NCBI GenBank assembly: GCA_900112915.1
Contig: FONK01000003.1
Coordinates: 1-64,000, forward strand
Direction: 5' to 3'
DNA length: 64,000 bases
Origin: Peptostreptococcaceae bacterium pGA-8
Lineage (GTDB): Bacteria; Bacillota; Clostridia; Peptostreptococcales; Anaerovoracaceae
The notes beneath the pieces were generated by a model. That model saw only the letters and a program-made list of their open reading frames with translations. It was not told the DNA's origin and made no database searches. The translations under genes were made by a program, and so were the position numbers. Positions 4,284 through 23,387 of the stretch are shown piece by piece (positions within the stretch are counted from its first letter, which is position 1; each line of letters opens with the position of its first letter).

Positions 4284-4460
4284 ATGATTACACAAGCTAA
4301 ATTAATAAATTATGCAAGCAATTTTTTGAATTCAGAAATAGAGAATATCGAGAAACTGTTAAAGGACGACAGCATTGATGATGTGAGTAGAGATATATTG
4401 AACAAGCTTTTGAAAACATACAAACAAGACCTTGAAGAAATGGAAAAGGAGATATATTAA
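4284..4460 (+). CDS. small helical phage protein (58 aa)
   Basis: An open frame from ATG 4284 to TAA 4460 encodes 58 residues that look like one long charged helix pair (NSEIENIEKLLKDDSID and KTYKQDLEEMEKEIY). AGGAGG lies 6 bases upstream, a strong site. No family recognised. The stop lies within the second copy of the leader repeat. Confidence 0.6.
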   Translation: MITQAKLINYASNFLNSEIENIEKLLKDDSIDDVSRDILNKLLKTYKQDLEEMEKEIY

Positions 4461-4490
4461 TTACAACAATTAGAAACAGGAGAGAAAATG
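4452..4490 (+). repeat. direct repeat, copy 2 (leader/RBS segment)
   Basis: Near-copy of 3124-3163: TATTAATTACAACAATTA, then an AGGAGAGAAAA ribosome site and ATG. It serves the XF1762-type gene at 4488. The few differences include one A fewer before the ATG. The interval between copies holds the DUF4406 and neighbouring genes. Confidence 0.7.
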
Positions 4491-4925
4491 GAAATCAGAC
4501 CGATAACCTTCCGACAAGCCTGTGATTTTGTATCGCAACACCACCGACACCATCGACCGACGGTTGGTTGTAAGTTTTGTGTAGGACTTTATGACAGTGA
4601 CAATCTCGTAGGTGTTGCGATATGCGGCAGACCTGTTAGCCGACACCTTGACGATGGATTAACCTGTGAAATCAACAGGGTATGTACTGATGGTACATAC
4701 AATGCCTGCTCTATGTTATATGGTGCGTGCTGTCGAGTAGCTAAAGAAATGGGTTATAAGAGAATCATTACTTATATTCTTGAATCTGAAAACGGTGCGA
4801 GCCTTAAAGCAAGCAATTTTACTTGTGAAGGAAAAGCCGGGGGCGTTAAGTGGAACGGTACTCGTGATACCGGGCAGTCTTATCCTCACGAAATGAAAAC
4901 AAGATGGTCGAGGAGGTTAGTATAA
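4488..4925 (+). CDS. XF1762-family (GNAT-like) phage protein
   Basis: A 145-residue protein with the features of the XF1762 family: RPITFRQACDFVSQHHRHH at the start, CGRPVSRHLDDG in the middle, EINRVCTDGTYNACSMLYGAC, and SYPHEMKTRW near the end. The family is fold-related to GNAT acetyltransferases, and many members sit in prophages; substrate unknown. AGGAGAG lies seven bases upstream. Sure of the family, not of any reaction. Confidence 0.75.
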   Translation: MEIRPITFRQACDFVSQHHRHHRPTVGCKFCVGLYDSDNLVGVAICGRPVSRHLDDGLTCEINRVCTDGTYNACSMLYGACCRVAKEMGYKRIITYILESENGASLKASNFTCEGKAGGVKWNGTRDTGQSYPHEMKTRWSRRLV

Positions 4926-5048: not shown

Positions 5049-5198
5049 ATGATCCTATCATTAACAGAGGCCGCCTTTGAGGGGCGAGTAAATAAAATAA
5101 CCCTGCAAATCGCAGGTGCAAAAATCAGCATTAAAAGGGCAAATGATAAGGTAAAAATCGAAAGAAAAGATGTTAAAACTTTCAGCGCTGAAAGATAA
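5049..5198 (+). CDS. doubtful small phage ORF (49 aa)
   Basis: ATG 5049 to TAA 5198 gives 49 residues (MILSLTEAAFEGRVNKITLQ at the start), with plausible composition but no recognisable ribosome site. It fills the space between the Lar-like remnant and the Rep-like gene. The end contains a 16-bp palindrome (5179-5194). Could be part of a decayed gene. Confidence 0.35.
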   Translation: MILSLTEAAFEGRVNKITLQIAGAKISIKRANDKVKIERKDVKTFSAER

Positions 5199-5309
5199 AA
5201 AACTTCCTTCATATATAAAGGAAAGAAAAAACATAAAGATCCCTGCAGAAAAAACTCTGCAGGGAATAATTATAGGGCATAACTACAAGCGGTGGAAGAG
5301 AGTCCGCTT
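5179..5309 (+). other. palindrome and three hairpins upstream of the Rep-like gene
   Basis: Four inverted repeats lie in 130 bases: a perfect 16-bp palindrome CTTTCAGCGCTGAAAG (5179-5194); TTCCTT/AAGGAA (5204-5209, 5218-5223); CCCTGCAG/CTGCAGGG (5241-5248, 5257-5264); and AAGCGG/CCGCTT (5287-5292, 5304-5309). The rest of 5199-5349 has no gene. They could be terminators or, given the HUH protein directly downstream, a replication origin; none has a good T-run on the plus strand. Confidence 0.6.
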
Positions 5310-5349
5310 ATGACTTGATAAAGAGTATTAAACTTAGGTACATCAAAAA

Positions 5350-6183
5350 ATGAAACTAGCACTAAGAGAAACAATTATTGCAGGGAATTTAATTTTTAAT
5401 AAAATCACAACTCGCAGAAAAAATGACAAAATAAAAACGAGAGCAAAAAAAAGCAATCCCACGCCAATGTCAGTGGAAAAAATGAATCAGCATTATGCAG
5501 AGAAAAAATTCAATATCTTGCTACATCACAATTTTAAAGCCGGAGATCTATATGTGACTTTGACATATAGAAATAATCCTGATAAAGATTACGCTAATAA
5601 AAAAATAACTAGTTTTATAAAAAAGTTGAAGAGGAGATATAAAAAAGCAGAAGTAGAACTTAAATGGGTCCATGTAACAGAATATGAAAACTGCAATAAT
5701 TTACATCATCACTTTGTACTAAGCTACATAGATCCAGCGATAATTTACGATTGCTGGAAAGAGGGCTTTATAAAGATAGCATTGCTAGATGAGAGTGGAG
5801 ACTGGAGAAAGTTAGGAAATTATTTAATCAAAGAGACAAGTAGAACATTTAGAAATCCAGATGCATTTTCAAAGCAACGATACTCAAAATCAAGAAATGT
5901 TGTCATGCCGGAAGTAAGAGTTGAAGAGGTAAGCACAGAACAATTGTTTGTAGCAAAAGCAACAAAGGGATATTATATTGATCAAGACAGTATAATCAAA
6001 GGCATAAATCCTGACACTGATAAGCCATATATAGAATTTGTCCAGGTGGCACTTGATACACCGTGTAAAAAGTATTGCAGAGGCAAACGCAAAAAGTATA
6101 AGCGAGAGCGTATTAAGCAGATAATTGCAGAGAGACAATTAAGCCTTGCAGATATGCAAGGCAATCTTGAGGTACAAAAATGA
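5350..6183 (+). CDS. HUH rolling-circle Rep-like protein
   Basis: A 277-residue basic protein with the three ordered motifs of HUH replication initiators: motif 1 LYVTLTYR (residues 67-74), motif 2 LHHHFVL (118-124, the metal-binding His pair) and a motif-3-like LGNYLIKE (155-162) with Tyr158 as candidate nucleophile. Family members nick one strand at an origin hairpin and attach through the Tyr. In Firmicutes prophages such genes are annotated as rolling-circle replication-associated, but their role in tailed-phage life is unclear. No strong ribosome site precedes ATG 5350. It overlaps the next gene by four bases (ATGA). Its C-terminal 40 residues are Lys/Arg-rich. Confidence 0.7.
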   Translation: MKLALRETIIAGNLIFNKITTRRKNDKIKTRAKKSNPTPMSVEKMNQHYAEKKFNILLHHNFKAGDLYVTLTYRNNPDKDYANKKITSFIKKLKRRYKKAEVELKWVHVTEYENCNNLHHHFVLSYIDPAIIYDCWKEGFIKIALLDESGDWRKLGNYLIKETSRTFRNPDAFSKQRYSKSRNVVMPEVRVEEVSTEQLFVAKATKGYYIDQDSIIKGINPDTDKPYIEFVQVALDTPCKKYCRGKRKKYKRERIKQIIAERQLSLADMQGNLEVQK

Positions 6184-6605
6184 CAGCAAAAGAATATTTA
6201 AAACAATACAAAGAAATAGAAGTTAAATTGAGCTTGATTGAGGATGAAATTATAAACTATGAAACGATGGCTGGACATATAACAACAGCGACGGATTCTG
6301 TTATAGTGCAATCATCAAAAACAATAGATCGAATTGGGGATATAGCTGCTAACCTTGCGGATTTAAAACTTGAAGCTATGGAGTATCGTTCACGGCTTAT
6401 TACTCAAAGAGCAGAAATTACAAAGATACTATGCAAGCTAAAAGATGCCAGATTCATAACTGTACTTTATCTCAGATATATAAAGCTCAAAACGTGGGAA
6501 CAAATCAGCGTTGAAATTGGACACTATCTAAGACATACACACAGGATTCACGGCAAAGCTTTGCAGGAGCTCGAAAAAATATTAATAAAAGATGGCATTG
6601 AATGA
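6180..6605 (+). CDS. ArpU/DUF1492-type late transcription regulator
   Basis: A 141-residue protein with an N-terminal coiled coil and a C-terminal sigma-70 region-4-like HTH (VLYLRYIKLKTWEQISVEIG, then HRIHGKALQELEKIL). This layout and its place at the end of the early operon, just before HNH and head genes, fit the DUF1492/ArpU/RinA-type regulators that switch on late genes in phages of Firmicutes. It starts inside the end of the Rep-like gene. An inverted repeat and a terminator follow directly. Confidence 0.7.
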   Translation: MTAKEYLKQYKEIEVKLSLIEDEIINYETMAGHITTATDSVIVQSSKTIDRIGDIAANLADLKLEAMEYRSRLITQRAEITKILCKLKDARFITVLYLRYIKLKTWEQISVEIGHYLRHTHRIHGKALQELEKILIKDGIE

Positions 6606-6698: not shown

Positions 6699-7028
6699 AT
6701 GAGACTAGATAAGACGGGGGCTCACAGATCTAACTTTGAAAGAAATAGAAGAAAAATAATGGCAACTCACAATACCTGTGGGATATGTGGACAACCGGTT
6801 GATATGACATTAAAAACACCCCACCCTATGGCTCCATGTATAGATCACATTATTCCTATAGCAAAAGGAGGCCACCCGTCAGATATTGCCAATCTGCAAC
6901 TCGCACACTGGAGCTGTAATCGGCAGAAATCAGATAAATTATTTAAAGACAGCACTAAAGGCAATTTGCCTGTCGGAAATAGAAATCTTCCACAAAGCAT
7001 GGATTGGACTGATTATAAATCAAAATAA
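6699..7028 (+). CDS. HNH endonuclease, packaging-associated
   Basis: A 109-residue HNH nuclease: zinc cysteines in CGIC (27-30), the catalytic DHIIP (49-53), a GG turn, NLQ and HWSCNRQKSD (70-79); His70 replaces the third usual Cys. Small HNH proteins next to the terminase/portal genes are required with the terminase for cos cleavage in HK97-like phages, so this is probably that packaging partner rather than a homing nuclease. GAGG lies upstream of ATG 6699. No separate small terminase gene is visible nearby. Confidence 0.85.
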   Translation: MRLDKTGAHRSNFERNRRKIMATHNTCGICGQPVDMTLKTPHPMAPCIDHIIPIAKGGHPSDIANLQLAHWSCNRQKSDKLFKDSTKGNLPVGNRNLPQSMDWTDYKSK

Positions 7029-22817: not shown

Positions 22818-23387
22818 TTATTTCCAGCGAAAGCCTTTATCACCCCAAAAGCCTGCTCTGCTATTTCTTGCTTCTTTCTGCAATTCTTTAAATTCATCTT
22901 CGTACTTCACATTTGGATATGTGTTTATAACCCTGGCATAGCCCTTTTTTAAGAGCTCTTTATTGAACATTTCCCCGTTGACGTATATATAGGCAAGGGT
23001 GCGGCCATATTTATCTTCTGCCTCCTTGTCATATTCGAGAGTGACTTCTTTGTTTAGGAGACTTTCTTCAGTGTATTTAGCCGCCATCTTCCCTTGAGGC
23101 ACATTCCGTTCTTCTTGCGGGCTGACTGATTCGGGTGTATCTATGCCTATCAGCCTAACCCTCGCTTCTTTTCCTGACCTGTTTACAATGACCGTATCAC
23201 CGTCTACAATTCTTGTGACCCGGCAGCTGTCCCGGCTTTCAAGGTTGGATGCTCCGGAAGGGTTTTCACGAAAATTATCATATATGCCGAACTTCGCAGA
23301 AGCTAGAATGAAGATAAGGATTATTGACTTCAGTATCAGGGAACGGCTTCTATTTTTTTGCTGATTTCGGGTTCTGTTTTTTGACAT
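22818..23387 (-). CDS. staphylococcal-type thermonuclease, membrane-anchored or secreted
   Basis: A 189-residue protein of the SNase family. An N-terminal basic stretch and hydrophobic segment (SLILKSIILIFILASAKFG, residues 16-34) look like a signal anchor. The nuclease domain has VDGDT (D64 in DGD), R78 and D83-E86 in RLIGIDTPES, and R129 in DKYGRTLAYIY: all catalytic and calcium-binding positions are present. It should act outside the membrane on DNA or RNA. The gene reads toward the prophage, with GGAGG just upstream of the start. It marks the first chromosomal gene right of the phage. Confidence 0.85.
   Translation of the reverse strand: MSKNRTRNQQKNRSRSLILKSIILIFILASAKFGIYDNFRENPSGASNLESRDSCRVTRIVDGDTVIVNRSGKEARVRLIGIDTPESVSPQEERNVPQGKMAAKYTEESLLNKEVTLEYDKEAEDKYGRTLAYIYVNGEMFNKELLKKGYARVINTYPNVKYEDEFKELQKEARNSRAGFWGDKGFRWK

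Follow-up and report, generated by a model that had tools for sequence, protein, structure and literature searches.

The window analyzed here, a stretch of 64,000 nucleotides (nt), opens at the start of contig FONK01000003.1 in the 1.78-Mb genome of Peptostreptococcaceae bacterium pGA-8. A prophage takes up the first 23.4 kb and matches an IMG/VR contig of 23,387 bases with identical coordinates. This prophage appears to be truncated at the contig start, so that the phage's own early genes are partly unseen. The initial annotation had placed an HUH Rep-like gene at 5179 to 6183. The three motifs behind that call do lie in one open reading frame, running from 5350 to 6183, and the gene start given at 5179 is wrong: the span read from there contains three stops, and 5179 to 5349 is an upstream region with four inverted repeats, all of them present as described. 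The features of the locus, in window coordinates, are the following.

5179..5194, no strand assigned: perfect palindrome of 16 nt, CTTTCAGCGCTGAAAG (inverted-repeat search)
5204..5223, plus strand: imperfect inverted repeat, TTCCTTCATA/TATAAAGGAA, overlapping a TATATA element (inverted-repeat search)
5240..5265, plus strand: second, stronger hairpin of 10 bp, TCCCTGCAGA/TCTGCAGGGA, terminator-like on the minus strand too (z = −6.3)
5287..5309, plus strand: candidate-origin hairpin AAGCGG/CCGCTT (5287-5292 with 5304-5309) with an 11-nt loop (z = −2.7, counterpart stems)
5314..5331, plus strand: candidate nick site and core, CTTGATAAAGAGTATTAA (homologue comparison, phiX174 and pC194 origins)
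5350..6183, plus strand: rep, HUH-type replication initiator of 277 amino acids, ATG start (PF23343, phrog_3584, motifs)
6180..6605, plus strand: phage transcriptional regulator (sigma-like), next after rep (phrog_36)
6699..7028, plus strand: HNH endonuclease, preceding the packaging genes (PF01844, phrog_338)

The rep gene and its prophage setting

The tailed-phage setting proposed earlier is borne out by PHROG matches to portal, minor head, and TerL genes downstream of rep, where the gene order (Pfam and PHROG) is sigma-like regulator, HNH, portal, minor head, and TerL. Genes with Pfam matches on the 5' side are PcfJ, DUF3102, DUF4406, and a Mom-like gene. The last of these, a DNA modification/acetyltransferase gene (4488-4925; phrog_1384, PF25680, NCBIfam XF1762), directly precedes the candidate origin region, and the PcfJ-like and DUF3102 genes (129-2596) recur 5' of Rep in relatives; in one related prophage (G064), PcfK adjoins PcfJ. 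The right edge of the prophage carries a staphylococcal-nuclease homologue, encoded on the minus strand (22818-23387).

Both Pfam and PHROG assign the rep product to a replication-initiator family, in agreement with the HUH Rep-like call. Its match to PF23343 (REP_ORF2-G2P) scored 56.1 bits against a curated cutoff of 27.8 (E = 4.7e-15, residues 67 to 164), and its match to phrog_3584 ("replication initiation protein") stood at 7e-47. No Pfam family other than PF23343 was listed for it at E ≤ 1, and profiles of Rep_1 (PF01446) and P2-type gpA (presumably PF05840) were absent from its Pfam matches. The motif residues are HUH at 119-121, Glu111, and Tyr158-x2-Lys161-Glu162. In a 63-row alignment, in which the window protein is counted twice, H119 is conserved in 62 rows, H121 and Y158 in all 63, and K161 in 61; W136 is also kept, within 61 to 63 of the 63 rows. 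Position 162, four past Tyr158, is Glu in 35 rows, as in the window protein, Asp in 15, and Tyr in 3, whereas phiX174 gpA has two tyrosines (YVAKYVNK). Judging from this comparison, most of the family has a single tyrosine here and an acidic residue at the position of the second.

An AlphaFold2 model of Rep (29-row alignment; pLDDT, 85.8) had as its best match among solved structures SIRV1 ORF119 (2x3g), which we take to be an HUH Rep, with a Z score of 9.1 and 3.4 Å over 108 residues, the only one above a Z score of 8. Ribosomal S6 proteins came next (Z up to 7.1), above the remaining HUH proteins (Z of 5.3 to 6.4); parvovirus NS1, Helitron, RepB, and REP-associated transposase matched at Z of 5.6 to 6.4. 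Foldseek returned no match to the model in the PDB at E ≤ 0.001, and PDB sequence searches with Rep gave no meaningful match. We regard the evidence from the model for an HUH fold as supportive, not decisive.

Members of the family are frequent in the host's order, with phrog_3584 matches in 55 of 393 genomes, and the window Rep itself was matched in 16 of 196 genomes of relatives, its own included. A mobile element that has multiplied within the host is unlikely, given the single Rep match in the host genome. Among 51 context loci searched with tblastn, homologues were found for Rep in 46, HNH in 10, portal in 10, TerL in 8, DUF3102 in 12, and PcfJ in 11.

The initial annotation had also raised the possibility that rep is a captured plasmid gene, and a plasmid replicon or hitchhiker of this kind might be separate from the phage's own replication system. 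Weak Rep relatives do occur in 49 plasmid records, all at less than 60% identity and 44 of them from Enterococcus, and one Enterococcus plasmid Rep (L105, upstream of 2294) is preceded, as read by eye, by a hairpin and then CTTGATTTATAG; nothing similar was seen by eye in the 220 nt upstream of the Rep of a Fusobacterium plasmid (L106). However, in a 68-row Rep tree, the window Rep falls in starred sets of 8, 29, and 37 rows, all from phages or bacterial genomes; neither of the two plasmid Reps tested belongs to the 37- or 29-row set, nor does any of three single-stranded DNA (ssDNA) phage Reps; the tree is midpoint rooted, has long branches, carries a false-join warning among the outside rows, and samples two plasmids. 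Moreover, 10 of the 51 context loci (two of which, L010 and L064, are one prophage) have Rep 5' of both an HNH and a portal homologue, and 8 of these 10 have a TerL homologue downstream of Rep as well. Recent capture from a plasmid is thus unsupported, and we consider a replicon foreign to the phage's own replication system very improbable. Microvirus Reps are also found among the weak tblastn relatives (E of 2e-4 to 1).

Repeats and conserved box upstream of Rep homologues

As single-stranded DNA, the region from 5179 to 5349 folds more stably than all of 200 shuffles (z = −5.1). The first two repeats fold weakly by themselves (z = −1.55 and −1.67), and the segment from 5286 to 5335 has a z value of −2.7, with 4 of 200 shuffles equally good. 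The initial annotation had named a lack of hairpin conservation in relatives as part of what would speak against its reading; the fourth hairpin (5287-5309), together with its CTTG, proved to be conserved, and the other three are not widely conserved. For the palindrome, no counterpart was recognized in the upstream regions of relatives read by eye. Of 56 loci, 28 have the TATATA element that overlaps the second repeat in the 105 nt preceding the origin hairpin, and 8 have it in a 105-nt stretch further up; the region from 5204 to 5223 is possibly a promoter or melting region.

A second upstream hairpin is present in 18 of 56 loci, the window included, against 0.8 expected from shuffles that preserve base composition, not dinucleotides. 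It lies 62 to 148 nt before CTTG and has CAAG in or at its loop in 7 of the 18. In L004, L005, L013, L049, L051, and L117, but not in the window, ACAAG (CTTGT on the opposite strand) occupies the loop region; where it carries ACAAG, this hairpin is possibly an opposite-strand nick or strand conversion site.

The unit that recurs beside Rep usually consists of a variable hairpin, CTTG, seven or eight bases, and TATTAA. With CTTG-N6..9-TATTAA allowed one mismatch at most, 43 of 64 Rep homologue loci (two of the 64 being short fragments) have the box in the 140 nt upstream. Elsewhere, the loci yielded 175 matches over 818,171 nt, a background of 0.03 per 140 nt. Under progressively looser criteria, the total reaches 56 of 64: four loci have it with two mismatches (L003, L016, L049, and L061), one has GTTC in place of CTTG (L045), and eight have it 146 to 282 nt upstream by a looser pattern that carries no background count. 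Two-mismatch sites at L020, L021, L023, L025, L030, L035, L045, and L073 were dropped by eye as spurious; among these loci, L045 later gave the GTTC site, and L021, L023, L030, and L035 gave a site further upstream. The box was not found upstream of five homologues (L020, L025, L026, L073, and L101), and L017 has GTAG where CTTG is expected.

Across 57 distinct elements, the tetranucleotide is CTTG in 48 (at 5314 in the window), CTCG in 7, and GTTC in 2. GTTC replaces CTTG upstream of rep in L016, L061, and L045, and since L016 and L061 are sisters in the Rep tree, with L045 far away, the switch from CTTG to GTTC probably happened twice. IS91-type elements, too, have CTTG and GTTC as their two target forms. 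In two Latilactobacillus phages, a CTTG-TATTA box lies before the annotated rep (L103, 5849) or inside it (L104, 3860), where the annotated start may be wrong.

The stem in front of the box is kept in position and not in sequence. The best stem ending 2 to 10 nt before CTTG averaged 7.96 in the 57 elements versus 3.58 in composition-preserving shuffles, exceeding their 95th percentile in 37 elements (20 had no stem above this threshold), compared with 1 of 57 for a downstream control segment. An alternative measure gave 30 of 55 loci with a stem reached by no more than 3 of 60 shuffles. In the window, the AAGCGG/CCGCTT stem ends 4 nt before CTTG. As the 57 elements have 49 different arm pairs, pairing is kept while the sequence changes, suggesting that the hairpin is under selection.

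A 17-mer scan starting from the motif led back to Rep. Among 39 viral loci, 20 had Rep downstream on the same strand, and in genomes (84 stretches found) Rep lay beside 8 of 80 among the matches listed; several of these 28 Rep-linked loci are first-set loci met again or copies of one another. Of 24 distinct hits next to Rep, 15 had a strong stem preceding CTTG, as against 3 of 83 elsewhere. Among the matches listed, hits without Rep numbered 91 (19 viral and 72 from genomes); 12 of the genome hits resemble S-box ends, all 12 overlapping Rfam SAM riboswitches, and several others look by eye like coding sequence.

The bare core is not confined to the upstream region of rep. Exact CTTG-N7/8-TATTAA also occurs on the minus strand of the window prophage at 4318 and 513, without the AGAG middle, and the Butyrivibrio phage Arawn has a single exact copy, 44 nt before rep, along with eight one-mismatch matches whose middles differ by eye. 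CTTGATA alone was uninformative as a signal, with 23 occurrences in the window versus 13.0 expected, a count reached by 1 of 100 shuffles; our argument relies instead on the longer element at its position.

Conservation of this kind could also arise if the hairpin and box were an operator or mRNA leader controlling rep, with replication starting elsewhere; a Rep operator for self-regulation would show the same pattern. In 32 of the 43 loci, 27 to 49 nt separate the box from the start codon, a spacing suited to a leader or operator, and TATATA is enriched just upstream, but the distance is 58 to 117 nt in the other 11 and 146 to 282 nt in the eight further loci, so that the box is not tied to the start codon. 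In addition, phiX174 is nicked at the tetranucleotide conserved here, and an Rfam scan of window positions 1 to 24000 gave just one chance-level rox1 match and no known family at the element. We therefore consider a purely regulatory role improbable.

Candidate origin and mode of replication

Because the hairpin-CTTG unit is conserved and no other recognized initiator was found in the proteins examined, the idea of a replication function is supported, with one of the hairpins as the candidate origin. The initial annotation had suggested that Rep might nick at these hairpins for a replication or packaging step; the conservation of 5287-5309 with its CTTG fits probable nicking beside that one hairpin, for replication. 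We consider it likely that rep encodes the phage's rolling-circle initiator and that 5287 to 5331 is its double-strand origin; nicking, the exact cut, direction, termination, and the standing of this process as the main mode of replication are inferred.

In the proposed mechanism, Rep would bind the hairpin region, and Tyr158 would cut the plus strand at CTTG^A and remain on the 5' end. The cut is predicted between 5317 and 5318, since the phiX174 record annotates its origin at the A of CTTGA (CTTG^A cut). The free 3' end would then prime a host polymerase through rep into the late genes, displacing the plus strand, and after one round Rep would recut and rejoin the site. Glu162 may act for the second tyrosine of phiX174 gpA, and host helicase and primase would supply the remaining functions.

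The replication genes of related phages bear on this division of labor. In the full annotation of Arawn, where many proteins are hypothetical, Rep (gp43) and two SSBs are listed, and no helicase, primase, DNA polymerase, or loader appears. Prophage G196 reads integrase, HsdR-like, cI-like, PcfJ, DUF3102, MazG, and Rep, and prophage G064 reads integrase, AlbA-like, repressor-like, PcfK, PcfJ, DUF3102, and Rep; no replication initiator was found among the 10 early-region proteins scanned in each, several of them family-less. Rep is thus the sole recognized candidate initiator in these three phages and prophages within the proteins annotated or scanned. The family-less early proteins could include a replication protein of another kind, the G064 AlbA-like protein combines an AlbA_2 domain with a "putative ATP-dependent DNA helicase recG C-terminal" domain, and a related Latilactobacillus phage has one gene annotated "primase." Of the GC-skew bins, 15 of 16 in Arawn and 12 of 12 in the window prophage are positive; we set the skew aside as replication evidence, as one-way transcription fits as well as one-way replication.

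The names PcfJ and PcfK come from a conjugative plasmid. With these genes as neighbors, and with rep directly preceding the HNH, portal, and terminase genes, Rep might instead nick phage DNA for packaging or cell-to-cell transfer, not for copying. The phage nevertheless carries its own HNH and TerL, and in Arawn and in Latilactobacillus phage TMW 1.1381 P1, which was obtained as virions after induction, SSB and other early genes stand between Rep and the packaging genes. Nothing we found speaks for packaging, and we give very little credence to a role confined to packaging or transfer.

Returning to rolling-circle initiation, the recurrence of the hairpin and nick-like site beside the same gene in dozens of phages and prophages makes it probable that the tailed phages which have it copy their DNA by rolling circle, as tiny single-stranded phages do. 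More tentatively, and with an assurance that stops somewhat short of an even call, we hypothesize that a broad lineage of tailed double-stranded DNA (dsDNA) phages and prophages, found mainly in hosts of the Clostridia type and with some Lactobacillales among them, replicates its entire genome from a hairpin-CTTG origin of about 60 nt by means of a single small phiX174-like Rep, through single-stranded or monomer-circle intermediates and with host helicase, primase, and polymerase, the second Tyr being mostly Glu or Asp and the tetranucleotide having gone from CTTG to GTTC on two or more occasions (L016/L061 and L045). A predictable origin for the Rep would account for the replication of such phages and provide mappable nick sites, and the pair would allow mini-replicons to be built for hosts with few genetic tools. 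The 57 distinct origin elements can be paired with their Reps for specificity work, in which the CTTG/GTTC switches, if the hypothesis is true, would be a natural series for decoding Rep-origin specificity.

Comparison with known replication systems

Rolling-circle replication of tailed phages is known from P2, in which gene A encodes an HUH initiator that works with the host replication machinery; the P2 protein has two tyrosines, and replication starts from an origin within gene A itself. The present phage is like P2 in being tailed and having an HUH initiator, and differs in that the window Rep has no P2-type gpA Pfam match. HUH replication in a tailed phage (P2) and PF23343 as a named family are thus already known. 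Within the open-access literature, which leaves most subscription papers outside its scope, we found no description of a hairpin-CTTG-TATTAA origin beside PF23343 and no paper under the Pfam and PHROG names of the Rep family; the words "rolling" and "HUH" do not occur in PMC9641780 and PMC10688831.

Plasmids of the pC194/pUB110 family offer a second comparison. The pC194 origin contains CTTGATAATAAGGGTAACTATTG (PMC7072734), CTTGATA is named as the nicking site for Rep_1-like proteins (PMC10378824), and this heptamer is common to the origins of the family and the one proposed here (PMC7072734, PMC5031790, PMC10378824). Unlike the initiators of that family, the window Rep has no Rep_1 (PF01446) match, and here the hairpin lies 5' of CTTG, with TATTAA downstream. 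Rep-Arvir of the pleolipovirus SNJ2 is likewise a virus initiator with a conserved hairpin origin adjoining its gene, but it is non-HUH, has an archaeal host, and has its hairpin downstream, unlike the window Rep (PMC13107129).

With phiX174 protein A, the window Rep shares the HUH-type and Y-x2-K motifs and the CTTG^A nick sequence. The phiX174 origin lies inside gene A, whereas the candidate site here is 5' of rep, after a hairpin, and Glu162 stands four past Tyr158 where protein A has its second tyrosine. If the proposed reading holds, a lineage of tailed dsDNA phages would be tied to an initiator family common to ssDNA phages.
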